NCBI RefSeq assembly: GCF_014217685.1
Contig: NZ_CP043653.1
Coordinates: 562,419-626,418, forward strand
Length of the DNA stretch: 64,000 nt
Reading direction: 5' to 3'
From: Glaciihabitans sp. INWT7
Lineage (GTDB): Bacteria; Actinomycetota; Actinomycetes; Actinomycetales; Microbacteriaceae
A program made the translations under genes and the position numbers. The notes beneath the pieces were generated by a model, which was given only the letters and a program-made list of their open reading frames with translations, had not been told where the DNA came from and searched no databases. Positions 2,583 to 42,817 of this stretch are shown here, in pieces. Position 1 is the first letter of the stretch; each line of letters starts with the position of its first letter.

Positions 2583-3035
2583 TCACGCCCCTCCGAAGAT
2601 GTGCATGAGCTGACGGGGGAGGAAGCCCGCCATCAGGACGACCCAGATTCCGATGACGATCCAGAACATGAGGCGCTGGTGCTTGGTGCCGACGCTCCAG
2701 AAGTCGATGAGGATGATGCGCAGGCCGTTGAGGGCGTGGAAACCGATGGCGGCGACCAAGCCCGCTTCACCGAGGCCCATGATGGGCGTCTTGTACTGGT
2801 CGATCACCGCGTTGTAGGCCTCCGGGCTGAGCCGCACGAGCGAGGTGTCGAGGATGTGCACGAGCAGGAAGAAGAAGATCGCGACCCCGGTGATGCGGTG
2901 GAGTACCCACGACCACATCCCTTCCCGACCCCGATACAGCGTGCCTCGTGGCACCCGCGGAGCTGAGATCCTGGGTGTCGGAAATTTCTTATCTGGCGTA
3001 GGTGCAGCCAGGGCCCCCGCCGACTTCTCTGGCAC
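2583..3035 (-). CDS. sdhC: Succinate dehydrogenase cytochrome b556 subunit
   Basis: Haem-binding membrane subunit of complex II and first gene of the operon (150 residues). WSWVLHRITGVAIFFFLLVH matches the SdhC signature region with its ligand-type histidines. Three membrane helices are seen. The GTG at 3035 is chosen because AAGGAGGG sits just upstream; a longer in-frame opening back to 3089 would place that ribosome site inside the protein. The 5' leader is about 60 nt if the TAGAAT box at 3105-3110 is the -10 element. Confidence 0.93.
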   Translation of the reverse strand: MPEKSAGALAAPTPDKKFPTPRISAPRVPRGTLYRGREGMWSWVLHRITGVAIFFFLLVHILDTSLVRLSPEAYNAVIDQYKTPIMGLGEAGLVAAIGFHALNGLRIILIDFWSVGTKHQRLMFWIVIGIWVVLMAGFLPRQLMHIFGGA

Positions 3036-3075
3036 GAACAACCCTCCTTGGCGTCGGTGAGCTCCATAACAGAAG

Positions 3076-11951: not shown

Positions 11952-12050
11952 CATCATTCAGGAACATGCGGGGCGGGAGTGACTGGAGTAGGTGGAGTGA
12001 AACTTTCCACTCCCACTGACCACTCCCGCCACAGAAGCTCCTGAATGATG
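11952..12050. repeat. 99-bp palindromic element, copy 1
   Basis: Begins CATCATTCAGGAAC and ends GCTCCTGAATGATG, terminal inverted repeats with one mismatch. Pairing continues inwards (GGCGGGAGTG against CACTCCCGCC), so most of the element can fold into one long hairpin. The left arm holds three GGAGT steps. It lies 38 bp after the end of the deoA operon, between convergent genes, and 39 bp before copy 2. Confidence 0.9.
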
Positions 12051-12089
12051 AGGTCGCGCTCTCCCGATGGGACTGCACGATCGTGCTTT

Positions 12090-12188
12090 CATCATTCAGG
12101 AACACGTGGGGCTGGAGTGAATGGAGTGTCAGATCGATGCCTCACCGGTCTCGGTATTCACTCCCGTCCCGGATGTTCCTGAATGATG
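12090..12188. repeat. 99-bp palindromic element, copy 2
   Basis: Same length and orientation as copy 1 with perfect 14-bp terminal inverted repeats (CATCATTCAGGAAC / GTTCCTGAATGATG). The GGAGTGAAT of the left arm pairs with ATTCACTCC on the right. The interior differs from copy 1. It ends 22 bp from the 3' end of the nucleoside hydrolase gene. Confidence 0.9.
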
Positions 12189-12209
12189 CGAACCGGAGGG
12201 CAACGGTCG

Positions 12210-13157
12210 CTATCGGGACGGGTCGCCGATGCGCACCAGGGCATCCACGATCATGGCCCAGAAGCGCGGCACATCCAGTGCGGTCGCCGCATGGGTGGTG
12301 CAGCCCTCCGGCGCCTCGGTGCGGAAGTCGGCGACGGTCATTCCCAGGGTCAGCGTGCCCGCAAGCTCGATGTCCAGGGGCACGCGCACGACGGTCATCA
12401 CGGTCGGGTCGATGACGAGGGCGACAGCGCAGGGATCGTGCACGGGCGGGTGCTCAAAGCCCTGCGCGTTCCGGTAGGTGGTGCCGAAGAAGTCGAGCAG
12501 TTCGCCGACGAAGCGCGCCGGCGCGGTGTCGACGGCGGCGATGGCCGCGATCACCTCCGGGGTCGCGAGAGCCTGGTGCGTGACATCCAGCCCCACCATC
12601 GTGAGCTTCCAGCTCTCGTTGAAGACGATGTGAGCCGCCTCCGGATCGATCACGATGTTGAACTCCGCGGCGGCGCTCCAGTTGCCGACGTTATAGCCGC
12701 CGCCCATCAGCACCACCTCCTTCACGAGGGACGCGATGCGCGGCTCCTTCCGCACGGCGAGGGCGATGTTGGTGAGAGCGCCGGTCGGCACGAGGGTGAT
12801 GGTGCGGGCAGGCGCGGCCATGATCGTGTCGATAATGAGATCGACGGCGTGCCGCGGATCGGCGGCGAACAGGGGCTCGGGGAGTTCGGGTCCGTCGAGA
12901 CCGGACGAGCCGTGGATCGACTCTGCCACTTCGGCGGTGCGCACCAGGGGCCGATGGGCGCCGGCGGCGAACGGAATGCCGGTGATTCCGGCGATCCGGG
13001 CGATGGCCAGCGCATTGCGCGTGACCTTCTCGATGGTCTGGTTCCCGTGCACCGTCGTCACCGCGACCAGCTCGATCTCGGGGTTGCCGTGGGCGAGGAT
13101 CAGCGCGATCGCGTCATCGTGCCCCGGGTCACAATCCAGAATGATCTTCTTGGCCAT
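12210..13157 (-). CDS. Inosine-uridine-type nucleoside N-ribohydrolase
   Basis: Hydrolyses nucleosides to base plus ribose. The calcium-binding signature of the family, DCDPGHDDA, is at residues 8-16, TTVHGNQTIEK follows, and NIVIDPEAAHIVF plus HDPCAVALVID complete the metal and ribose site. Length (315 residues) is typical. It is transcribed divergently from add, with only 42 bp between the two start codons, so the two probably respond to shared signals. Base preference is not predictable here. Confidence 0.93.
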   Translation of the reverse strand: MAKKIILDCDPGHDDAIALILAHGNPEIELVAVTTVHGNQTIEKVTRNALAIARIAGITGIPFAAGAHRPLVRTAEVAESIHGSSGLDGPELPEPLFAADPRHAVDLIIDTIMAAPARTITLVPTGALTNIALAVRKEPRIASLVKEVVLMGGGYNVGNWSAAAEFNIVIDPEAAHIVFNESWKLTMVGLDVTHQALATPEVIAAIAAVDTAPARFVGELLDFFGTTYRNAQGFEHPPVHDPCAVALVIDPTVMTVVRVPLDIELAGTLTLGMTVADFRTEAPEGCTTHAATALDVPRFWAMIVDALVRIGDPSR

Positions 13158-13163
13158 TCCGTC

Positions 13164-13169
13164 AGGTTA
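13164..13169 (-). promoter_or_regulatory. -10 box for leaderless nucleoside hydrolase transcript
   Basis: TAACCT on the minus strand ends 6 nt before the ATG at 13157; no ribosome site is seen. It lies back to back with the add promoter. Confidence 0.55.
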
Positions 13170-13187
13170 GCGGCCGGCGGCACCCGA

Positions 13188-13193
13188 TAGATT
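13188..13193 (+). promoter_or_regulatory. -10 box for leaderless add transcript
   Basis: TAGATT ends 6 nt before ATG 13200; the intervening bases (TGGGGC) are not a usable ribosome site at that distance. Confidence 0.6.
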
Positions 13194-13199
13194 TGGGGC

Positions 13200-14315
13200 A
13201 TGACCACCTCAGACTTCTTCATGCCCGGCGGCGGCGCGAACATCACCGCGCTTCCCAAGGTCTCCCTCCACGACCACCTCGACGGGGGCCTCCGTCCGCA
13301 GACCATCGTCGAGCTCGCCGCCGAGATCGGCCTGGAGCTCCCCGAGACGGATGCCGCGGCGCTCGCCGACTGGTTCGCCGAGAAGGCGGATTCCGGCTCC
13401 CTCGTCGACTACCTGAAGACCTTCGACATCACCACCGCTGTCATGCAGACGGCAGCGGGGCTCACCCGCGTCGCCCGCGAGTTCGTGGAGGATCTGGATG
13501 CCGACGGCGTGATCTACGGCGAGATCCGTTGGGCCCCCGAACAGCACCTCGCCCGCGGCCTCAGTCTCGATGAGGCCGTCGAAGCGGTGCAGGAAGGCAT
13601 CGAGGAGGGCATCAACGCCGTCGCCGAGGCGGGGCGCAGCATCCGGATCGGGCAGTTGGTCACCGCTATGCGTCACGCCGATCGTGGGCTCGAGATCGCA
13701 GAGCTCGCCGTGCGCCACCGCAACAACGGGGTCGTCGGCTTCGACATCGCCGGCGCAGAGGCCGGATTCCCCGCGGGCAACCACCGCCATGCCTTCGACT
13801 ATCTCGCGTCGCACTTCTTTCCCACGACAGTGCATGCGGGGGAGGCCGACGGCCTCGAGAGCATTCGTGGAGCGCTGTTTGACGGCCGCGCGCTGCGCCT
13901 CGGGCACGGCGTTCGCCTCGCCGAGGACATCACGGTGGACCGTTCGGACGACGAGAACACCTACGTGGAGCTCGGGCGGCTCTCGCAATGGGTGAAGGAT
14001 CGGGAGATCGCGCTCGAGTTGAGTCCCTCGTCGAACCTTCAGACGGGTGCTATCGCGCAATGGGGCGACGAACTCATCGATCACCCCTTCGACCTGCTCT
14101 ACCAGCTCGGCTTCCGAGTGACGGTCAATACCGACAACCGGCTGATGAGCCGTACTTCGCTGAGTCGCGAGCTCGCACTTCTCGCGGAGACATTCGACTA
14201 CGACCTGACCGACCTCGAGGTGTTCCAGCTCAACGCCGCCGGATCGACCTTCCTCCCGTTCGAAGAGCGCGAAGAGCTGGCCGATCGCATCAGCGCCGGT
14301 TTCGAGCGGGCCTGA
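13200..14315 (+). CDS. add: Adenosine deaminase
   Basis: Deaminates adenosine or deoxyadenosine to inosine or deoxyinosine. Zinc ligands H24 and H26 lie in SLHDHLDGG; HAGEAD carries the third histidine and catalytic Glu region, LGHGVRL the His base and TDNRLMS the metal-binding Asp. The 371-residue length is normal. It heads a run of genes with 4-bp or smaller overlaps: add, PTS EIIA, PTS EIIB. Related enzymes act on other adenosyl compounds, so the exact substrate is open. Confidence 0.93.
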   Translation: MTTSDFFMPGGGANITALPKVSLHDHLDGGLRPQTIVELAAEIGLELPETDAAALADWFAEKADSGSLVDYLKTFDITTAVMQTAAGLTRVAREFVEDLDADGVIYGEIRWAPEQHLARGLSLDEAVEAVQEGIEEGINAVAEAGRSIRIGQLVTAMRHADRGLEIAELAVRHRNNGVVGFDIAGAEAGFPAGNHRHAFDYLASHFFPTTVHAGEADGLESIRGALFDGRALRLGHGVRLAEDITVDRSDDENTYVELGRLSQWVKDREIALELSPSSNLQTGAIAQWGDELIDHPFDLLYQLGFRVTVNTDNRLMSRTSLSRELALLAETFDYDLTDLEVFQLNAAGSTFLPFEEREELADRISAGFERA

Positions 14316-14761
14316 TGCCACTTCCCCTTCTCGCCGAATCGGCGATCATCGTGGGAGCCGAGGCCGGTGACTGGCGCGAAGCCGTGCGGCTGGCCGGCCG
14401 CGCCCTCACGGCTTCCGGTGCCACCAGACCGGGTTACGCCGACGAGATGATCCGCATGATCGACGAGCACGGACCCTACGTCGTGATTGCTCCAGGGCTT
14501 GCACTCGCTCACGCGCGACCGGGACCGGATGTGCTGGCCGACGGTCTCGCGGTGGTGACGCTTGCCACTCCGGTGTCGTTCGGGCATCCGCACAACGACC
14601 CGGTCAGCGTGGTGCTCGGCCTCGCGATCAAGTCGGCGGACTCGCACATCGAGGCCGTCGCCGAGCTCGCGAACGTCTTCAACGACTCGAGCGCGATCGC
14701 CAGGCTCACGGCGGCGACTTCGGTGTCCCAGGTGCTCGAGATCATGGGGACAGGCTCGTGA
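14315..14761 (+). CDS. PTS EIIA component (fructose/mannitol/ascorbate-type)
   Basis: Phosphocarrier domain of a sugar phosphotransferase system, 148 residues in the cytoplasm. H66 in LALAHARPG is the expected phosphorylated histidine, and PVSFGHPHNDPVSVVLGLA is the conserved stretch with a second histidine. The start shares a base with the add stop and the end overlaps EIIB by 4 bp. No membrane EIIC is encoded in the window, so it either serves an EIIC elsewhere or acts in regulation. Confidence 0.88.
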   Translation: MPLPLLAESAIIVGAEAGDWREAVRLAGRALTASGATRPGYADEMIRMIDEHGPYVVIAPGLALAHARPGPDVLADGLAVVTLATPVSFGHPHNDPVSVVLGLAIKSADSHIEAVAELANVFNDSSAIARLTAATSVSQVLEIMGTGS

Positions 14762-15030
14762 AGATCGTTGCTATCTGCGGGGCGGGGATCGGCAGCTCCG
14801 GCATCCTCAAGGTGAACGCGGAGCGGGTGCTCGCGCGGCTCGGCCTGGAGGCGGATGTCACGGCAGCCCATCTCTCGAGCCTCAGCACCGATGCGGCGGA
14901 TGCCCAGGTCATCCTCACCTCTGCCGAATTCGTGGATGCGATCGGACCGACGAATGCCGACGTCATCGTGATCGAGAACTATTTCGACACCGCCGAACTC
15001 GCTCGGAAGCTCGAAGAGTCACTCGGCTGA
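14758..15030 (+). CDS. PTS EIIB component (ascorbate/galactitol-type)
   Basis: 90-residue cytoplasmic phosphotransfer protein. C7 in ICGAGIGSS is the phosphocysteine of the lactate-dehydrogenase-like EIIB fold used by Ula/Gat-type systems. GTG start overlaps the EIIA stop by 4 bp. It is followed by 72 bp containing a palindrome and the promoter of the next two genes. Confidence 0.88.
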   Translation: MKIVAICGAGIGSSGILKVNAERVLARLGLEADVTAAHLSSLSTDAADAQVILTSAEFVDAIGPTNADVIVIENYFDTAELARKLEESLG

Positions 15031-15058
15031 AGTTTCATATATAAAAACTGCTTTCATA
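15031..15058. promoter_or_regulatory. Candidate IclR-type operator upstream of the SAH-hydrolase-like gene
   Basis: An AT-rich island in a GC-rich region: AGTTTCATATATAAAAACT (15031-15049) has 5-bp arms AGTTT/AAACT round a TATATA centre, and TTTCATA recurs at 15052-15058, 19 bp after its first occurrence. A -10-like TAAGCT lies just downstream at 15063-15068. The nearest regulator gene is the IclR protein two genes on, so autoregulation is plausible. Confidence 0.45.
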
Positions 15059-15102
15059 GGCGTAAGCTCGATGGCATCATCCCATCCGAGTGAGGAACGA
15101 CC

Positions 15103-16281
15103 ATGTCCAGTGAGCTCGTCGAACGCGGCCATCAGCGGCTGGAATGGATCCGGTCGCGAATGTCGCTGCTGGCGGCCGCACGGCAGGAGTTCTCCGCCTC
15201 CCAGCCCTTCGCCGGGCGCCGGATCGGCGTCGCAATCCATCTCGATCCGAAGACCGCGGTGTTGCTCGAAGTGCTCGCGGTGGGCGGGGCGGAGATCGTG
15301 GCCACCGGGAATCACGGATCCACCCAGGACGACATGGTCGCCGTGCTTCGCGAGCAAGGCCTCGTCGTGTTCGGGCGGCGGGACGACACCATCGAACAGC
15401 ACCGCGCCAACGTCGCGAGCGTGCTCGATACGAAACCCGACATGATCCTCGACAACGGGGCGGACCTCATCGCCGGGGTGGTGCACCGCGGTGTCGCCGC
15501 AAGCGTGATCGGGGCGACCGAAGAGACTTCATCGGGTGCCGACCGGCTGCGCGGCGAACTCGCCGACCACATCCCCTTTCCCGTCATCGTCATCAACGAC
15601 AGCCCTCTCAAGGCGATCGGCGAGAATCGGCATGCGGTTGGACAGTCCGTCGTCGAGAGCCTCATGCGCATCACCGGGCTCATGGTGCCCGGCCGCCGCT
15701 ACGTCGTCGTGGGATACGGCTGGTGCGGTCGAGGCATCGCCCAGTACCTTCGCGCGCTCGGCGGTCGGGTCGCGATCGCGGAGGTGGACGACCTCAAGGC
15801 ATTCGAGGCGGCGCTCGACGGCTATCGGGTTGCACCGATCGCCGAGCTCGCGGGATGGGCGCAGACGGTCATCACGGCCACCGGGCGGCCGGGGGTGATC
15901 GGGGCATCCGAGTTCGCGCTGCTCGAATCCGGCACCGTGCTCGCCAACAGCGGGCACTTCGACTGGGAGATCGACGTGCCGGCCCTCACCGCCTCCGCGA
16001 GTCGGGTCGTGCCGGTGGATGACGCGATCGAGCGGGTGGAATTCGCGGACGGGCGTCACGTGGTGCTTCTCGCGGGTGGGCGCATGGTCAACCTCGCCGG
16101 CCGAGAACCGCGCGGCAATTCGCTCGAATCGATGGATCTCGGCTTTCTCCTGCAAGCGCTCTCGCTAGAACGGATCGCCGGATCCGCCGCCCTGCTCCCC
16201 TCGGGCGCCCAGCCCGTGCCCGACGACCTCAACCGCCTGATCGCACGTCGGATGGTCGCGGCGATGTCGGCGTCCCGATGA
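15103..16281 (+). CDS. S-adenosylhomocysteine hydrolase-like NAD-binding protein
   Basis: Short (392-residue) member of the adenosylhomocysteinase family. Recognisable blocks are ATGNHGSTQDD, DNGADLIAGVV, IGATEETSSGADRL, VIVINDSPLKAIGENRHAVG and the Rossmann motif VVVGYGWCGRG; the C-terminal KPxxYRY tail of long enzymes is absent, as in archaeal and Thermotoga-type forms. The active-site position usually Asp (after the catalytic Lys) is Glu, and the following Cys of long enzymes is Val. ATG 15103 has GAGGAA upstream. It overlaps the IclR gene by 4 bp. It may act on a related nucleoside thioether rather than SAH. Confidence 0.75.
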   Translation: MSSELVERGHQRLEWIRSRMSLLAAARQEFSASQPFAGRRIGVAIHLDPKTAVLLEVLAVGGAEIVATGNHGSTQDDMVAVLREQGLVVFGRRDDTIEQHRANVASVLDTKPDMILDNGADLIAGVVHRGVAASVIGATEETSSGADRLRGELADHIPFPVIVINDSPLKAIGENRHAVGQSVVESLMRITGLMVPGRRYVVVGYGWCGRGIAQYLRALGGRVAIAEVDDLKAFEAALDGYRVAPIAELAGWAQTVITATGRPGVIGASEFALLESGTVLANSGHFDWEIDVPALTASASRVVPVDDAIERVEFADGRHVVLLAGGRMVNLAGREPRGNSLESMDLGFLLQALSLERIAGSAALLPSGAQPVPDDLNRLIARRMVAAMSASR

Positions 16282-17066
16282 GTGGTACCGCACTCCCGGG
16301 CTCCGCCGCTCCGATGCCCGGCTCCCAGCGGTCCGACTCCCCGGCCCCCGACTACTCGGTTCCGGCGCTGGACAAGGCGCTCGATATCCTCGAACTCCTG
16401 GCGGCACGATCAGGCGGGCTCAGCCAGGCTGCCATCGCGGAGGCGGTCGGTCGATCGGTCAGCCAGGTCTTCCGGGTTCTTCAGACCCTGGAGGGGCGGG
16501 GATACCTCGTGCGCGAGGAGCGCTCGGGGCTCTACCGCTTGTCGATGCAGCTGTTCACGCTCGCCCATCGGCAGGAGCCGCTTCGCGGTCTCGAGACTGC
16601 CGCGCTTCCGGCGATGCGGGCCTTCGCGGACGAGGTGCGGCAATCCTGCAACCTCGGAGTTCTCTCGGCCGGCCGGGTTCTCGTGCTCGCCCAGGTGGAG
16701 AGTCCGGCGAACTTCGGATTCCGCGTGCGGGTCGGTTCGGAGTTCCCGCTCGAGGGCACCGCGACCGGTGCCGTGCTCGCGGCCTTCGGCGAGGAGTCGG
16801 TGACCGAGCCGTGGTTGTCGGGTCTTTCCCGCGGCGCTCGGGATCGGGTCGATCGTGTGCGACTCCGGGGCTTCGAACGCGCGGACGACAGCCTCCAGCC
16901 GGGCATCACCGACATCGTCTTTCCGGTCTTCGGGAGGGGAGGCTCGGCGGTGGCGGCACTCACCGTGCCCTATGTCTCGACGAGTTTCAGCGCGGCACGC
17001 ACCCACCAGGTCGAGGCCCGGGCACGGGCGGCAGCCGAGACGATCTCAGGCGCGCTCGGCCATTAG
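16278..17066 (+). CDS. IclR-family transcriptional regulator
   Basis: Winged helix-turn-helix at about residues 28-95 (ALDKALDILELLA, GLSQAAIAEAVGRSVSQVFR, GYLVREERSGLYRLS) followed by the GAF-like IclR effector domain. Co-transcribed with the SAH-hydrolase-like gene (ATGA overlap), so its likely targets are this gene and the neighbouring PTS/add genes. The last 21 bp overlap the 3' end of the convergent mutase gene. Effector is unknown. Confidence 0.88.
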   Translation: MSGTALPGSAAPMPGSQRSDSPAPDYSVPALDKALDILELLAARSGGLSQAAIAEAVGRSVSQVFRVLQTLEGRGYLVREERSGLYRLSMQLFTLAHRQEPLRGLETAALPAMRAFADEVRQSCNLGVLSAGRVLVLAQVESPANFGFRVRVGSEFPLEGTATGAVLAAFGEESVTEPWLSGLSRGARDRVDRVRLRGFERADDSLQPGITDIVFPVFGRGGSAVAALTVPYVSTSFSAARTHQVEARARAAAETISGALGH

Positions 17067-18713
17067 CTGGCGCATGGCGGATTCGAGCCGGTCGACGGCA
17101 CCCTGGGCGACCGCCTGCCGGTGCGCGGCGGTGCCCTCGGCGCTCGAGGCGTCGATGTAGACCTTCACCTTCGGCTCGGTGCCGCTCGGACGCACGATCA
17201 CCCGCGATCCATCATCGAGCAGGTAGCGCAGGATGTCGCTGGCGGGCAGGCCGGCGAAGCCATCCGCGAAGTCATCGACCTGTCGAACGGCCACGGCGCC
17301 GATCCGCTCTGGTGGGGACAGCCGCAACGCAGACATCAGGCGCGGGATGTCGGCGAGATCAGTCATCCGAATCGACACCTGCGACGAGGCGAAAGCGCCG
17401 AAGCGCTCGGCGAAGTCGGTGAGGTGATCGGTGACGGTGCGGCCGACGGCCTTGAGGTCCGACACGAGCCCCAGGAACTCGACCGCCGCCGAGATCCCGT
17501 CCTTGTCGCGCACCTTTTCGGGGTCGACGAGGTAGCCGAGGGCCTCTTCGTAGCCGTAGGAGAGGCCGGGCACACGCGACACCCACTTGAATCCGGTGAG
17601 CGTGTCGACGTAATCGAGCCCGTACTGGCGCGCCACCTCGGCGAGGGCCGGGGAGGAGACGATCGATGCCGCGAGGGTGCCAGAGGCGCCCGCCGCGGCA
17701 AGTCGCTCGGCCGCGCGCCAGCCGAGCAGCGCACCGACCTGGTTGCCGCTCAGCCGCTGCCACTCGCCGTCAACGTCGGGGATGCCGATGGCGAGGCGGT
17801 CGGCATCCGGATCGTTGGCGATCACGAGTTCGGCGTCGGCGGTGATGGCCGCATCGAACGCGAGATCCATCGCCCCGGGTTCTTCCGGGTTGGGGAAGGT
17901 GACCGTGGGGAAGGCCGCATCCGGCTCGATCTGTGCCGAGACGACTGTGGGTTCGCCGAATCCGGCGTCGAGGAAGACACGATGTGCCGTCTCCCAGCCG
18001 ACCCCGTGCATCGCGGTGTAGACGTAGCGCACCGCGGCCGGGGGGCGCCCGGCGATGGCAGCCGTGCGGCGCACGTAGGCGTCGATCACCTGCTCGTCGG
18101 CCGTCTCATAGGCCGTGGATCGGGGCAGCTGCAAGACGCTCTGGTCGGCGGCGACGGTCAGGATGTGCGCCGCGATCTCGCCATCCAGCGGCGGCACGAT
18201 CTGGGAGCCCTGGTCGGCGTCACCGAGGTAGACCTTGTAGCCGTTGTCCTGTGGGGGGTTGTGGCTCGCCGTGACCATCACCCCGGCGCTGACGCCGAGC
18301 TCGCGCACGGCGAACGCCAGAACGGGAGTGGGAAGCAATCGGGGAAGCAGCACGGCGCGCACTCCGGCGCCGGCCATCAACTCCGCGGTATCGGTGGCGA
18401 AGATCTTCGAGTTCTTGCGGCCGTCGTATCCGATCACCACGCTCGGTGCGCCCCCGCGGGAGACCAGGAAGCTCGCGAATCCGGCGGCGGCCTGACTCAC
18501 GAGCACCCGGTTCATCCGGTTCGAGCCGGCCTCGATCCGGCCGCGAAGCCCGGCGGTGCCGAACTCGAGTCGGGTATCGAAGCGGTCGTGCAGTTGCGCG
18601 AGCGCGATGTCGGAACCAGACTCGGCGTCTGCCAGGAGCAGGGCGAGTTCTGTTCGGGTCTCGTCATCCGGATCCTGGTCGTGCCAGGCGCGCGCGACAT
18701 CGACGACGCTCAC
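17046..18713 (-). CDS. Phosphohexomutase-superfamily enzyme, possible phosphopentomutase
   Basis: 555-residue alpha-D-phosphohexomutase: catalytic serine in ASHNPPQDNGYKVYLG, magnesium loop DPDADRLAIG, sugar loop GYEEALGYLVDP and phosphate loop RPSGTEPKVKVY are all present. The length and the GYEEALGY sequence match the PGM2-like branch, some of which interconvert ribose-1- and ribose-5-phosphate. Its GTG start shares one base with the stop of purine nucleoside phosphorylase and no deoB-type mutase is seen, so a phosphopentomutase role is inferred; phosphomannomutase activity is the alternative. Confidence 0.8.
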   Translation of the reverse strand: MSVVDVARAWHDQDPDDETRTELALLLADAESGSDIALAQLHDRFDTRLEFGTAGLRGRIEAGSNRMNRVLVSQAAAGFASFLVSRGGAPSVVIGYDGRKNSKIFATDTAELMAGAGVRAVLLPRLLPTPVLAFAVRELGVSAGVMVTASHNPPQDNGYKVYLGDADQGSQIVPPLDGEIAAHILTVAADQSVLQLPRSTAYETADEQVIDAYVRRTAAIAGRPPAAVRYVYTAMHGVGWETAHRVFLDAGFGEPTVVSAQIEPDAAFPTVTFPNPEEPGAMDLAFDAAITADAELVIANDPDADRLAIGIPDVDGEWQRLSGNQVGALLGWRAAERLAAAGASGTLAASIVSSPALAEVARQYGLDYVDTLTGFKWVSRVPGLSYGYEEALGYLVDPEKVRDKDGISAAVEFLGLVSDLKAVGRTVTDHLTDFAERFGAFASSQVSIRMTDLADIPRLMSALRLSPPERIGAVAVRQVDDFADGFAGLPASDILRYLLDDGSRVIVRPSGTEPKVKVYIDASSAEGTAAHRQAVAQGAVDRLESAMRQLMAERA

Positions 18714-19534
18714 TACAACTCCTGCACAATGCGCGCCAACAGCGCCGAGATCACCGGTTCGGCATCCCGACCGGCCTCGAGCACCTCGGCGTGGCTCAAT
18801 GGAGACTTCTGGATGCCCGCAGCGAGGTTGGTGATCAATGACAGTCCGAGGATCTCCATGCCGGCCTGCCGGGCCGCGATCGCCTCGAGGGCGGTGGACA
18901 TCCCCACGATGTGGCCGCCGATGGTCTTCGCCATCTGCACCTCCGCGGGAGTCTCGTAGTGCGGTCCGCGGAACTGGGTGTACACGCCCTCGTCGAGGGT
19001 GGGATCGACGGACTTCGCGATCGCACGCAGGCGGGCGCTGTAGAGGTCCGTGAGATCGATGAAGGTCGCACCCTCGAGCGGTGAGTCCGCGGTGAGGTTG
19101 ATGTGGTCGCTGATGAGTACCGGGGTGCCGGGCTTCCAGGTCTCGCGGATGCCGCCGGCACCGTTGGTGAGGATCATGATTTTCGCCCCGGTGGCTGCCG
19201 CTGTGCGCACGCTATGCACGACCCGGCGCACGCCGTGGTTCTCGTAGTAGTGGGTGCGCGCCCCGATCACGAGGGCGTTCCTGCCATCGGCGAGGCGGAT
19301 GGATCGCAGCGTTCCCACGTGGCCCTCGAGCGCGGGAGCGCTGAACCCGGTGATCTCTGCAGCGGGAATGGTCGTGGTGGTCACACCGATGAGGTCGGCC
19401 GCCTTGCCCCAGCCGCTTCCGAGTGTCAGGGCGATGTCATGGTGGTCGACACCCGTCCGCTCGGCGATCTCGGCCGCTGCGAGAGCAGCGATCTCGAAGG
19501 GGTCGGCAGCGTTGTCGTCGAGAGGATTCGGCAT
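18713..19534 (-). CDS. punA: Purine-nucleoside phosphorylase (trimeric type)
   Basis: Phosphorolysis of inosine/guanosine and deoxy forms to base and pentose-1-phosphate. TLGSGWGKAADLI (phosphate loop), ARTHYYENHGVRRVVHSVR, LTNGAGGI, QFRGPHYETPAE and LITNLAAGI follow the order of the trimeric (NP-II) family; the Asn in LITNLAAG favours 6-oxopurines. 273 residues. It is upstream of and coupled to the mutase gene, forming a two-step route from purine nucleoside to pentose-5-phosphate. Confidence 0.93.
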   Translation of the reverse strand: MPNPLDDNAADPFEIAALAAAEIAERTGVDHHDIALTLGSGWGKAADLIGVTTTTIPAAEITGFSAPALEGHVGTLRSIRLADGRNALVIGARTHYYENHGVRRVVHSVRTAAATGAKIMILTNGAGGIRETWKPGTPVLISDHINLTADSPLEGATFIDLTDLYSARLRAIAKSVDPTLDEGVYTQFRGPHYETPAEVQMAKTIGGHIVGMSTALEAIAARQAGMEILGLSLITNLAAGIQKSPLSHAEVLEAGRDAEPVISALLARIVQEL

Positions 19535-19540
19535 CCGCCC

Positions 19541-19546
19541 AGCCTA
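19541..19546 (-). promoter_or_regulatory. -10 box for leaderless punA transcript
   Basis: TAGGCT on the minus strand ends 6 nt before ATG 19534, with no separate ribosome site. It drives the punA-mutase pair. Confidence 0.55.
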
Positions 19547-19630
19547 TGGGAGAGCCGCGTCGGTTGCGCGGATGCCGGCCTTCGCTGCCCTGATTCGCCG
19601 CTCCGCCGCTCTCTACGGGAGAATGGGCGC

Positions 19631-21067
19631 ATGTCCTATGAATTCGAGCGCAAGCAACGTATCGCCGTGGTCGGGGGCGGTCCCGGGGGATACGAAGCTG
19701 CGCTCACCGGAGCCCAGATGGGCGCCGAGGTCACCGTCGTCGAGCGCGTGGGGGTCGGCGGATCAGCCGTGCTCACCGATGTCGTCCCCTCGAAGACGCT
19801 CATCGCGACCGCCGAGGCGGCGAACGCGATCGGCGAGGCTGCCGATCTCGGAGTGCAGTTCTTCGTGCGCGGAGATTCCGGCAGACCCGTGCGGCCAGAA
19901 GTCACCGTCAATCTCGCCGCTGTCAACCAGCGCCTCCTGCGCCTGGCCCGCCAGCAGTCCGAAGACATGAAGTCGCAACTCATCAAGGCCGGCGTCACCG
20001 TGATCCAGGGTGACGGTCGACTGGACGGACCGAATCGCGTCATCGTGTCCACCGGCAAGGGCAAGACCAGCACCGACTTCGACGAGATCAATGCCGACAC
20101 GATCGTCGTCTCGGTCGGCGCGAGTCCGCGCATCCTTCCTTCCGCCGTTCCCGATGGCGAACGCATCTTCACGTGGACGCAGCTGTACACGCTCAAGGAG
20201 ACGCCCGAGCACCTGATCGTGGTCGGATCCGGTGTCACCGGCGCGGAGTTCGCTTCGGCGTTCACGGCGCTCGGCTCCAAGGTCACGCTCATCTCGTCCC
20301 GCGACCAGGTGCTTCCGGGCGAGGATGCCGATGCCGCGCGCGTGATCGAGGACGTCTTCAAACGCAATGGCATGACCGTGCTCTCCAAGTCCCGGGCAGA
20401 TTCCATCGTGCGAACCGCGGATGGCGTCGTCGCGACCCTCTCGGACGGCCGCACCGTGGAAGGCAGTCACTGCCTCATGGCGGTCGGCTCGGTACCGAAC
20501 ACCGCCGGCATCGGGCTGGAAGAGGCTGGCGTTCAGCTCACCGACTCCGGGCACATCCGGGTGAACCGGGTGGCGCGTACCTCGATGCCCTCCATCTACG
20601 CGGCCGGTGACTGCTCGGACTTCCTGCCCCTGGCATCCGTCGCGTCCATGCAGGGCCGCACCGCCGTCTTCCACGCCATGGGCGATGCGGTGAACCCGAC
20701 GGAACTCCGTAACGTCACCTCGAACATCTTCACGCAGCCGGAGATCGCAACTGTCGGCTGGTCGCAGAAGCAGATCGAGGACGGCATCGCGCAAGGCGTG
20801 ATCTACAAGCTGCCCCTCGCCTCGAATCCGCGGGCGAAGATGATGGGGATCAGGGACGGCTTCGTCAAACTGTTCGCCCGCACCGGCTCCGGCACCGTCA
20901 TCGGCGGCGTGATCGTCGCGCCCCGGGCATCCGAGCTCATCCTGCCGATCGCGATCGCAGTCGAACACCGGCTGACCGTCGACCAGGTGGCGCGGGCCTT
21001 CGCCGTCTACCCCTCGCTCTCCGACAGCATCACGGATGCGGCGCGCGCGATGCACATCGTCAACTAG
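19631..21067 (+). CDS. NAD(P)H-quinone dehydrogenase (LpdA-type flavoprotein)
   Basis: Pyridine nucleotide-disulfide oxidoreductase fold with FAD motif VVGGGPGGYEAAL and NAD(P) motif VVGSGVTGAEFASA, plus the dimerisation domain. The redox cysteines of lipoamide dehydrogenases are replaced (GVGGSAVLTDVVPSK), and the His-Glu pair region reads VYPSLSDSI; both are hallmarks of the mycobacterial LpdA (Rv3303c) group that reduces quinones. 478 residues. It is separated from punA by 96 bp and divergent from it. A weak -10-like GAGAAT ends 6 nt before the ATG. Confidence 0.85.
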   Translation: MSYEFERKQRIAVVGGGPGGYEAALTGAQMGAEVTVVERVGVGGSAVLTDVVPSKTLIATAEAANAIGEAADLGVQFFVRGDSGRPVRPEVTVNLAAVNQRLLRLARQQSEDMKSQLIKAGVTVIQGDGRLDGPNRVIVSTGKGKTSTDFDEINADTIVVSVGASPRILPSAVPDGERIFTWTQLYTLKETPEHLIVVGSGVTGAEFASAFTALGSKVTLISSRDQVLPGEDADAARVIEDVFKRNGMTVLSKSRADSIVRTADGVVATLSDGRTVEGSHCLMAVGSVPNTAGIGLEEAGVQLTDSGHIRVNRVARTSMPSIYAAGDCSDFLPLASVASMQGRTAVFHAMGDAVNPTELRNVTSNIFTQPEIATVGWSQKQIEDGIAQGVIYKLPLASNPRAKMMGIRDGFVKLFARTGSGTVIGGVIVAPRASELILPIAIAVEHRLTVDQVARAFAVYPSLSDSITDAARAMHIVN

Positions 21068-21111
21068 CGCCGTCGCCCGTCACCCGTCCCGACTGCGGTT
21101 CATGCGGCCTT

Positions 21112-21210
21112 CATCATTCAGGAAGGTTTGTGACGGGAGTGGCGGGAGTACACGGTGGGGTGGTCTCGCGCCTCCTTAGCCCCTTCCCTCACAGGAATTC
21201 CTGAATGATG
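21112..21210. repeat. 99-bp palindromic element, copy 3
   Basis: Starts CATCATTCAGGAA and ends TTCCTGAATGATG; 13-bp perfect terminal repeats. Inside the left arm TGTGACGGGAGTGGCGGGAGT keeps the GGGAGTG motif. It lies 44 bp after lpdA and 37 bp before the DUF559 gene, so it precedes that gene's ribosome site. Confidence 0.9.
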
Positions 21211-21247
21211 CTTCTCCACCGGGTGCTGAGGTGGGGGAGCGGAGCGG

Positions 21248-22165
21248 ATGCTGGCAGCCCACGCTGGCGCGATGACAGACCTTGCTCACGCCATCGACGT
21301 CCTCGGCGGCATCGCGACCAGGCAGCAGCTCCTCGCGATCGGCTTCACGGGCGCTGACCTCACTCGCGCCGTGCGAGGTGGCGGGATATGGCGCGTCCGG
21401 CAGGCACGCTACGCCTCGCCGACAGCGCACATCGACCGTGTCGCCGCGGCACGGGTCGGTGGCCTGCTCGCCGGGCCGAGTGCCGCGGCGACATACGGAC
21501 TGTGGGCGGGCCTCGATCCCCGACTCCACATCAGCGTCGGCCGCAATTCGGCACGTCTGCGCACCAATGTCGCTCCCTCGTTCAGCGACCGGATGACGCT
21601 CAGTCCGGACTCGTCGGGACGACCGATCGTGCTGCATTGGATTGGCGGAGGGGCCGTTCCCGAACGGGGTCCGGAATGCTGGCGGACGTCCTTCGAACAA
21701 TGCCTTCGCCAGACCGTGGCCTGGTGCGACACCGAGACCGCAGTCGCGTGCCTCGACACCGCGCTCGCGGTGGCGAACTGCTCGCCCGCCCGGATCTTCG
21801 AGATCTTCTCACCTGCTTCGGCATCGGACCGACTCACCGCTTCTCTCTGCCGGCAAGGGAGCGATTCCGGCAGTGAGTCGCTCGTGCGCCAGCGGCTCGA
21901 CCGGCTCGGCATCCGCTATCGACAGCAGGTGGAGGTTGCCTCGGTCGGTCGGGTGGACTTCGGTCTGATTGGCACGCGCATCGTCATCGAAGTCGACAGC
22001 TGGCGATATCACGGCGACCGAATCGCGTTCGAACGCGACCGCCGGCGCGACGCCGAACTCGTGGCTCGCGGGTATACCGTCATCCGACTCACCTATCAGC
22101 GGATCATGAACGACTGGCCGTGGTGCGAGCGCATGATCCTCGCCGCGCTCGCTGCGGGGCGCTGA
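21248..22165 (+). CDS. AbiEi-type wHTH plus DUF559 endonuclease-like protein
   Basis: 305 residues. The N-terminus (about 10-60, GGIATRQQLLAIGFTGADLTRAV) resembles the winged helix of AbiEi antitoxins. The C-terminus (about 215-300) reads as the DUF559/Vsr-like nuclease fold: E in SESLVRQRL, VDFGL, IVIEVDSWRYH, a DRRRDAEL helix and TVIRLTYQRI. A possible start at 21272 exists; 21248 is preferred for the GGGGGAG upstream. No AbiEii partner is adjacent. The gene sits exactly between repeat copies 3 and 4. Function is unknown; DNA binding and cleavage are inferences from the folds. Confidence 0.8.
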   Translation: MLAAHAGAMTDLAHAIDVLGGIATRQQLLAIGFTGADLTRAVRGGGIWRVRQARYASPTAHIDRVAAARVGGLLAGPSAAATYGLWAGLDPRLHISVGRNSARLRTNVAPSFSDRMTLSPDSSGRPIVLHWIGGGAVPERGPECWRTSFEQCLRQTVAWCDTETAVACLDTALAVANCSPARIFEIFSPASASDRLTASLCRQGSDSGSESLVRQRLDRLGIRYRQQVEVASVGRVDFGLIGTRIVIEVDSWRYHGDRIAFERDRRRDAELVARGYTVIRLTYQRIMNDWPWCERMILAALAAGR

Positions 22166-22204
22166 CGATCCTCCGCCCGCTCGTCGGGCGACGATGCTGC
22201 CTCG

Positions 22205-22303
22205 CATCATTCAGGAACATGTGGGGCCAGTGAGGCTGAAGAGTCGCGTGTATGCCTCGGGCGTCACTCTTTCCTCGGGAATCACAGGAGTTCCTGAATG
22301 ATG
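22205..22303. repeat. 99-bp palindromic element, copy 4
   Basis: Perfect 14-bp terminal repeats CATCATTCAGGAAC / GTTCCTGAATGATG; interior unlike the other copies apart from ATGTGGGGC on the left. It lies 39 bp after the DUF559 gene, and its last bases merge into the 8-bp tandem repeat. Confidence 0.9.
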
Positions 22304-22400
22304 CGGGGATGCGGAGATGCGGGGATGCGGGGATGCGGAGATGTGGATATGCGGGGGTGCGGAGATGCGGAGATGCGGGATGCGGAGGCGGGGATGCGGT
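22301..22400. repeat. 8-bp tandem repeat (ATGCGGRG)
   Basis: About a dozen imperfect units of ATGCGGGG or ATGCGGAG, with single-base variants and shortened units towards the right end. The unit length is not a multiple of three and the tract lies between convergent genes, so it is non-coding. The first ATG is the terminal ATG of repeat copy 4. Confidence 0.9.
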
Positions 22401-41363: not shown

Positions 41364-42817
41364 CTTCTGCGGTAACCGTGGTGGTGGTGTCGGCCACGCA
41401 ACCCAGCGGAAGGCTCGAAGAATCTGTGACGGGTGAGGGTTTCGAACTCCGAAGAGTCAACCGGGTGCCCGACGAGTCTGTTGCGACAGCAGTGGTGCAG
41501 GCTCTCTCCGATTCGACGAGCGAGTTCATCGCTGTCGTAGAGAGCGATGGCTGGATGTCCCCGCACGCGGGTGACGCGATTCGGCAATATCTGAGTGCGA
41601 ACCCGTCGGTCGACGTGCTCTACGCAGATGGGGCTGCAGTGGGACGACGAGGGCGCACGACATCGGTCGCGCGTCCCGACTATTCCCCGGAACGCCTACG
41701 CTGTCAGTTCTACTGGGGCGATCTCGTGATCTACCGCAGGTCGGTATTCGAGTCGCTCGGCGGTCTCGATTCGACGGTTCCCGGAGCTGAACTCTATGAT
41801 CTGGCACTCCGGTCGACAGCGGTTGCCCACTCGATCGAGCACCTCGCCCTTCCGGTTTTCACCCGTCCGAGCGCAGCCATCCGTCCGCTCAACTACCAGG
41901 AGCTCGAGTCCACCCGCGTCGCTCTGGAGCGCCATCTTGCCGCGACTGGCGGAGGCACCGTCAGGTCGGTCGGAGCCGATGGTGTCCACGACACCCGTCG
42001 CAGTGTCAAGGGCGAACCCCTGATCTCGATCGTGATCCCATCACGGGGAATCCATAGCATGGTCGACGGCCGGACACGGTGCTACCTTATCGATGCTGCC
42101 CAAAGCATTATGGATCTCTCGACATATCGCAACTTCGAGATCGTGGTCGCGCTCGACAGCGTCGCTGAACCGGCCGTTGTCACCGAGCTTGCAGACATCG
42201 TGGGCGATCAACTCCGAATCGTCGAATGGACGAGGCCGTTCAATTTCTCTGAGAAAGTCAATGCGGGAGTGCTCCACTCGCGAGGCGAGTTCGTCCTTCT
42301 CCTGAATGACGACGTCAGGGTCCTCGACGAGGATTGGCTCGAATCGTTGCTCGCTCTTGCACAGCTACCGGGCGCCGGTATGTCAGGCGGCCTCCTCTAC
42401 TACGAAGACGACACCATTCAACATGCGGGACATGGCTACTTCGAGGGAGACGCGTCGCATATCGGGTTGGACGCGCAAAGGACGGACCCTGGCCCCCTGG
42501 AGGGATACCGCGTTGAACGCGAAGTGTCCGGCGTAACCGCCGCCTGCGCGATGATGCCTCGGTCGGTCTATCTCGAAGTAGGCGGCCTCTCCAATCTCCT
42601 TCCCGGCAACTTCAATGACGTAGACCTGTGCATGAAAGTCACCTGGCGGGGATACCCGATCTATTGGACTCCTCACGCCGAGTTGTACCATTTCGAGTCG
42701 AAGACCCGCGACGCATCTGTGCACGCTTTCGAAGTGGACGTCGCGTGGGGACGCTGGGGGTTCCGCATGCATGACCCGAGGTACTGGCCGTACCCGCACA
42801 ATCGGCCACCAAGCTAG
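41360..42817 (+). CDS. Glycosyltransferase family 2 with degenerate N-terminal GT-like half
   Basis: 485 residues. The C-terminal half (about 225-470) is a clear GT2 fold: ISIVIPSRG, FEIVVALDSVAEP, LLNDDVRVLDEDWLESLL (DDD-type metal site) and GNFNDVDLCMKVTWRGY. The first 220 residues repeat the outline (VVESDGWMSPHAG, SVDVLYADG) with weaker motifs, so this looks like a two-module enzyme of rhamnan or galactan type. Substrate unknown. Confidence 0.82.
   Translation: MTSAVTVVVVSATQPSGRLEESVTGEGFELRRVNRVPDESVATAVVQALSDSTSEFIAVVESDGWMSPHAGDAIRQYLSANPSVDVLYADGAAVGRRGRTTSVARPDYSPERLRCQFYWGDLVIYRRSVFESLGGLDSTVPGAELYDLALRSTAVAHSIEHLALPVFTRPSAAIRPLNYQELESTRVALERHLAATGGGTVRSVGADGVHDTRRSVKGEPLISIVIPSRGIHSMVDGRTRCYLIDAAQSIMDLSTYRNFEIVVALDSVAEPAVVTELADIVGDQLRIVEWTRPFNFSEKVNAGVLHSRGEFVLLLNDDVRVLDEDWLESLLALAQLPGAGMSGGLLYYEDDTIQHAGHGYFEGDASHIGLDAQRTDPGPLEGYRVEREVSGVTAACAMMPRSVYLEVGGLSNLLPGNFNDVDLCMKVTWRGYPIYWTPHAELYHFESKTRDASVHAFEVDVAWGRWGFRMHDPRYWPYPHNRPPS

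Follow-up and report, generated by a model that had tools for sequence, protein, structure and literature searches.

Four short elements of exactly 99 bp lie in a 64,000-nucleotide stretch of the Glaciihabitans sp. INWT7 genome (G000, C1:562419-626418; the whole of this stretch is called the window), and the key to them is the gene between the third and fourth copies, which the preliminary description of this DNA missed. This gene encodes a protein with an AbiEi-like winged-helix N-terminal domain joined to a Vsr/EDxHD-like nuclease (DUF559 / REase_MTES_1575). The elements seem dependent on the nuclease gene they flank, and together they have the look of a bacterial mobile or selfish element of a type not yet described. 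Our best reading, to which we assign a probability of roughly 0.6, is that each element serves as a DNA site with two ends for the protein whose gene is flanked, that the protein forms a paired-end complex there and acts on it as a nuclease, and that gene-less derivatives have spread; in short, a cognate nuclease would bind these paired-end DNA elements and would probably also mobilise them.

A nuclease gene flanked by the elements

The nuclease gene occupies positions 21248-22165 of the plus strand (alternative start 21272) and stands between copy 3 on its left (21112-21210) and copy 4 on its right (22205-22303), which sit 37 and 39 bp from it at locus L200. Copies 1 (11952-12050) and 2 (12090-12188, starting 39 bp past copy 1) are solitary. 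No copy is assigned a strand, and all measure 99 bp, starting with CATCATTCAGGAA and ending with TTCCTGAATGATG, save that the right end of copy 1 carries one change (CTCCTGAATGATG).

This arrangement recurs. Among 12 named relatives, all Microbacteriaceae save one record labelled Actinomycetota, palindromes with like ends were seen by eye on both sides of the gene at 10 of the 12 loci, L169 and L172 being not clear on both sides. Palindromes sharing at least 9 bp flank both sides of 21 of the 30 best matches in the family and of 14 of 19 further fetched matches; these sets overlap, L257 among the 19 being a duplicate of L210 among the 30, and genomes used to build the query alignment contributed some of the 30. 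As a control, 7 of 456 other open reading frames (ORFs) of at least 200 aa in the element-rich fetched regions were flanked, in a scan with a slightly narrower downstream window than the gene scan, and 5 of these 7 lie beside genuine elements. At the loci read, the gene between the paired elements was the winged-helix nuclease, no search having been aimed at transposases with the same ends.

Correspondence between ends and genes

The strongest sign that the protein may read the ends is that end types match genes within G000. This genome holds at least five such genes at E 1e-20, and may hold more because 7 of 42 first-look candidates were scored. Four of the five have elements on both sides, and the end sequence differs from gene to gene: CATCATTCAGGAA at 583690, GCATAACTCCTGCAG at 551828, GTGCGAAATGCAGGA at 2473403 and AAAACGCAGGAGATTCGCC at 639031. 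Solitary copies with the end types of 583690, 551828 and 2473403 also exist in the genome.

Presence of the elements follows presence of the gene across 299 genomes of the family, counted by hand. Elements with the ATTCAGGA core occur in 24 of the 28 genomes with a gene match at E 2e-98 or better versus 27 of the 271 others (p 1.9e-17), a comparison that is partly circular because flanking copies count as elements and some genomes supplied the alignment. At E 1e-20, a match is found in 34 of 34 genomes with at least three elements versus 174 of 265 others (p 2.1e-6).

The predicted protein and its setting

The gene matches REase_MTES_1575 (PF18741, 1.1e-9) and DUF559 (PF04480, 2.3e-8) in Pfam and, weakly, the PADLOC profiles for homing endonuclease (5.5e-5) and AbiEi (7.5e-4). 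A Vsr-like fold with conserved E, D, H and D residues is present, its fit to the EDxHD motif being judged by eye, and the nuclease residues E203, D230, E241, H248 and D257 are invariant in 17 of 17 proteins. The AlphaFold model has a mean predicted local distance difference test (pLDDT) score of 71.5, with the nuclease part mostly at 77-94 and one block at 61. Its top fold-search matches were AbiEi 6y8q (E 6.6e-4) and I-Bth0305I 3r3p (template-modelling (TM) score 0.81, by target length), with Vsr 1vsr at rank 6. Because the whole-chain TM score to AbiEi is low (0.19-0.25), the AbiEi-like assignment of the N-terminus rests on E-values and sequence profiles. A Y1/HUH tyrosine transposase was not seen with Pfam, NCBIfam, PADLOC or Foldseek, which give AbiEi-like and Vsr-like domains.

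Two gene settings recur, one between lpd-like and biotin carboxylase genes and the other between glyS-like and DSBA-like genes. The neighbours were checked by their domains in the window (a pyridine-nucleotide oxidoreductase, lpd-like, and a biotin carboxylase) and in genome G178 (a class II tRNA synthetase, glyS-like, and a DSBA-like gene), and named by eye elsewhere. No AbiE nucleotidyltransferase toxin gene is adjacent in the window or in G178. With flanked and unflanked subfamilies taken together, the gene is matched at E 1e-20 in 208 of the 299 family genomes. Three weak matches were found in a plasmid collection and one weak match in a phage collection, on which count carriage of the gene by plasmids or phages was rejected.

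Number, anatomy and spacing of the elements

Half-sites with at most two mismatches number 9 in the window against 1.05 expected, and 9 or more were seen in 0 of 100 shuffles. Across the whole of G000 the 13-mer half-site occurs 30 times with at most one mismatch and its reversed control 0 times, and the 8-mer ATTCAGGA occurs 53 times versus 6 for its reversal. Joined with their partners, the half-sites make 16 elements (ten of 99 bp, three of 100, and one each of 101, 90 and 81), a minimum, as copies decayed at both ends escape the scan; three seeds among those printed in the scan are partnerless. The preliminary description had reported four elements of exactly 99 bp, whose coordinates and ends we reproduced. 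It had allowed that there might be just these four, that lengths might vary freely elsewhere, or that the elements might belong to a catalogued family; we find at least 16 copies, stepped lengths and no Rfam match. Its placement of the elements just after a plus-strand stop codon is not general: ORF calls from a simple script place 9 of the 16 copies in gaps between tandem ORFs, 5 in convergent gaps, 1 in a divergent gap and 1 inside a doubtful ORF. The GGGAGTG-type motif that it noticed in the arms is real, and in the 91-bp cores (n=18, from G000 and relatives) takes the form of G at 9-bp steps in both arms, which never varies at columns 15 and 24 and hardly varies at column 33.

The conserved parts of the elements are the two ends, a co-varying inner stretch and the spacing. 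Core spans of 173 distinct elements measure 70-74 bp (24 elements), 82-86 (76), 90-95 (59) and 104-107 (8), with 6 elsewhere, and so cluster near 72, 84, 92 and 105 bp. When periods of 8 to 13 bp were tried in half-base steps, the Rayleigh length peaked at 10.5 bp (R=0.725, 169 elements of 65-110 bp), compared with an R of at most 0.29 in 2000 uniform simulations, a result to be read with the shared ancestry of the elements and the limited gap windows of the collection searches in mind. A cleaner, independent test of the stepped lengths is provided by a second end family in G000, AACTCCTGCA, whose 12 pairs measure 73 (2), 83 (2), 84 (6), 85 (1) and 94 (1) bp in a scan of 840 kb, about a quarter of the chromosome, with a wide gap window. 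Most end families are built around a CAGGA core, and the centre of the 84-bp class (n=53) keeps a CCGCG motif.

The second family of G000 is multi-copy, has ends GCATAACTCCTGCA and was noted over G000:C1 184582-748621 (the 12 pairs are exact for its 10-base core), with 551828 as its cognate gene. A variant end family, TTTCTCCGGAGG, around or beside related genes at L165, L166, L203 and L266, is the furthest from the CAGGA core.

The core pattern was found in 7 of 13 genomes of the genus, G000 included, and in 51 of the 299 family genomes, representing 24 of 85 genera, with 0 for the reversed control. Outside the ATTCAGGA core the ends vary by lineage: G000 has CATCATTCAGGAA, G178 has TCGGAAATTCAGGA with an inner AAGTCTG, G007 has an inner CTTTGG, and part of G121 has CTCCTCATTCAGGA. 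Some elements apparently lie in conserved coding sequence, in the same place in several species (G178:C1:3502276 and G049:C1:2512673, with counterparts in G125, G229 and G269).

Possible movement and long residence

Mobility is suggested by one recent copy pair and by a gene slot with changing occupants. The pair lies in G178, 5 kb apart, with 76 of 82 bases equal, an interior identity of 0.89 and unrelated flanks; other pairs reach at most 0.55. The slot is the one after lpd. Among the 10 genus genomes with an lpd match it holds the window-type gene in G000 and a different nuclease-like family in G001, G003, G005, G009 and G011 (as also in G018, of another genus); it is empty in G010, with 203 bp between the stops, and not judgeable in G002, G007 and G008. 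In G001 the second gene of this slot also lies between palindromes that match each other, and a weaker case of this is seen in G003. The genome-wide search of G178 found 15 elements, 11 of them no more than 50 kb from the gene, and reading of the region showed 13 there.

The second nuclease-like family of the lpd slot carries the motif ..ADRPGES..VDFWWPQF..GEFDGR.KY.. and was seen at L282, L274, L281, L277, L279 and L283; at L282 its gene stands between small palindromes of 44 and 46 bp whose ends match. For a set of identical 79-bp copies in G001, hopping of the element itself was not demonstrated, the 70 bp read on each side being identical too.

Proposed mechanism and alternative explanations

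We propose that the winged helix would read the element ends, and that two protein units sitting on one helical face would be brought together as the short intervening DNA is bent, thereby producing a paired-end complex in which the nuclease could nick or cut the element. Such a complex is made plausible by an AbiEi-type protein that bends DNA on binding to paired inverted repeats of 23 bp (PMC7319586) and by an EDxHD homing endonuclease that forms a dimer on a target of nearly 60 bp (PMC3943268), as given in the portions of these two papers available to us. The self-sufficient unit would be the gene with its two flanking elements, and the scattered 99-bp copies would be gene-less derivatives, spread via cutting and repair or transposition and then kept at their sites while their middles drift. 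Somewhat short of even odds, and offered tentatively, is the wider proposal of a new selfish DNA class in bacteria in which a winged-helix and Vsr-type nuclease joins two helix-phased ends and copies very short elements around the chromosome, with paralogs that have private ends competing for intergenic slots and leaving gene-less elements behind.

Several observations weigh against the main reading. Periods of 10.0 and 11.0 bp give R values of 0.714 and 0.702, nearly equal to that at 10.5, and the short forms of the window's own family step by 9 bp (99, 90, 81) and not by 10.5. One of the five genes in G000, 1273144, is unflanked, and at the level of the order 10 of 29 loci are flanked, some via short and possibly chance matches. 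Each gene is flanked by two whole elements, unlike the single ends of a classical transposon. Among 15 further matches to the DUF559 Pfam model in eight genomes, L177 is clearly and L174 nearly flanked, L175, L180 and L183 have one-sided or decayed ends, and ten are unflanked, mostly members of other DUF559 subfamilies and including one true Vsr; on these counts the flanking link is restricted to one subfamily and does not extend to DUF559 at large. A general partnership with DUF559 had first been dropped, with 1 of 4 PF04480 matches in G000 beside a known element, and the partnership was revived when other genera showed flanking and other genes had different ends. There is no clear clustering of elements near the gene in G121. 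Of nine elements within 44 kb of the G178 sequence, at least six and perhaps seven share their intergenic gap, as judged by eye, with an element of G007, a different genus, which makes many elements old residents. Their ends fit a genus-wide consensus and their middles have diverged, which suggests selection in place and not frequent movement. This pattern calls for one of three processes, any of which would account for it: selection acting on elements where they stand, ends that are overwritten again and again, or hot spots at which elements re-insert. Target-site duplications were not apparent by eye in the flanks read, in a set that holds no strain-level pair with and without an element.

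One alternative, which we consider unlikely, casts the elements as sites through which a domesticated protein regulates genes or organises the chromosome: the winged-helix nuclease would bind and loop them at numerous intergenic sites, selection on the host would keep each of them, and there would be no present movement. Intergenic positions common to two genera, genus-specific ends kept over diverged middles, and flanking elements placed at the operator-like distances of 37 and 39 bp from the gene would all fit it, as would the binding of paired inverted repeats and bending of DNA by AbiEi proteins described in the part of PMC7319586 available to us. It leaves unexplained the invariant catalytic residues, needless for pure binding, and sits poorly with a recent copy in unrelated flanks, a slot whose occupants change within the genus, and the presence in a single genome of several paralogs whose ends differ. 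Much less probable is that the elements are ordinary miniature inverted-repeat transposable elements whose parent transposon, DDE or other, has not been seen, and that the nuclease gene is an incidental neighbour: they are short, have inverted ends, contain no gene and prefer intergenic sites, but most close relatives of the gene are flanked, as against 7 of 456 control ORFs, the end sequence tracks the gene, and target duplication was not seen by eye in the flanks read. We give about as little credence to a toxin-antitoxin or defence-like gene with operators, of which the solitary copies would be orphans. The AbiEi-like N-terminus invites this idea, AbiEi being described, in the part of the source seen, as binding inverted repeats in its own promoter; the downstream element is nevertheless in no operator position, elements adjoin unrelated genes, and no toxin partner lies between the window elements, because only the nuclease gene fits there.

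The elements are probably not RNA hairpins either, and a role as terminators or small RNAs at gene ends appears very unlikely. Single copies fold well on both strands (z -4.9 to -8.1), and 5 of 20 pairs in the consensus fold are changed on both sides, but the covariation term is just -0.07 kcal/mol, the length steps fit the DNA helix, and none of 4227 Rfam families matched the window at gathering score. In the 84-bp class (n=53) pairing of the arms exceeds column expectation mainly at positions 9-15 and is at chance at positions 16-34, so that the constraint there is on the ends, centre and spacing of duplex DNA. Excess pairing also appears at positions 25-27 in the 91-bp class, the window's own (a small sample, n=18), and at positions 18-22 in the 72-bp class (likewise small, n=11), and the exclusion of hairpins is weaker for the 91-bp class because its co-variation reaches positions 25-27. 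The preliminary description had suggested selection on structure or spacing and an alignment of copies for compensatory changes. Spacing is borne out by lengths stepped near the helical repeat, and hairpin RNA is disfavoured; the alignment gave no co-variation in the arm middles of the 84-bp class and some, at positions 25-27, in the 91-bp class. Its other suggestions, a protein site or a non-autonomous mobile element, gain support from the stepped lengths and from the position of the elements around a gene for a predicted DNA-binding nuclease.

Relation to known systems

The plan of the system is REPtron-like. In REPtrons and TIRtrons, RAYT genes are flanked by repetitive extragenic palindromes (REPs) or terminal inverted repeats, and REPtrons resemble the present case, so far as the source available in part goes (PMC3733652), in that palindromic repeats stand on both sides of a nuclease-type gene and further copies, without a gene, are dispersed over intergenic sites. 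The enzyme there is a tyrosine transposase, in contrast to the Vsr-like nuclease with AbiEi-like winged helix here, and the palindromes are of 20-40 bp and tagged GTAG or CGTC, whereas ours span about 70-110 bp and have different, helix-phased ends and poorly paired middles. I-Bth0305I (EDxHD) shares the nuclease fold and similar catalytic residues, but the present gene lies outside any intron, intein or phage and is flanked by its own repeats. AbiEi operators differ in that here there is no toxin gene, the ends are about 60-100 bp apart, a nuclease domain is added and many copies are scattered. The internal eliminated sequences of Paramecium are likewise short two-ended elements with a similar length periodicity, of about 10 bp, read as looping between protein-bound ends in a transpososome-like excision complex; they differ in being eukaryotic and removed by a domesticated piggyBac transposase, some at least deriving from Tc1/mariner (PMC3464196, as covered by the portion accessible to us).

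The enzyme and the element geometry thus fall outside the REPtron definition, and the AbiE-operon and Rfam definitions do not cover the system either. By these comparisons it would be a system of a new kind, of which we are less sure than of the association of gene and element itself. A literature search of titles and abstract openings, covering few subscription journals, returned no link of DUF559, MTES_1575 or AbiEi-type genes to flanking repeats. If the reading is true, a large and little-studied gene family would gain a function and a DNA partner, and a nuclease fold not named as such in the parts seen of the papers cited would be added to the drivers of dispersed repeats. The system would then offer a natural helical-twist experiment in bacteria, with private ends and paralogous proteins as a ready code for testing how winged helices read DNA.

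Half-sites and repeats outside the elements

At locus L070 (G157), half-sites at exact 31-bp steps are found beyond both of the elements that flank the gene, at 1409-1508 and 2946-3045. Such arrays were rejected as a general feature, with 54 such steps in G157 and 0 in the 298 other genomes searched, and represent a local elaboration. In the window, a lone degenerate half-site, CGTCATTCAGGAG, occupies positions 42299-42311 and is partnerless in the window scan. A tandem array of 12.9 copies of an 8-bp unit (GATGCGGG/GATGCGGA, 22300-22399) starts at the right end of copy 4.

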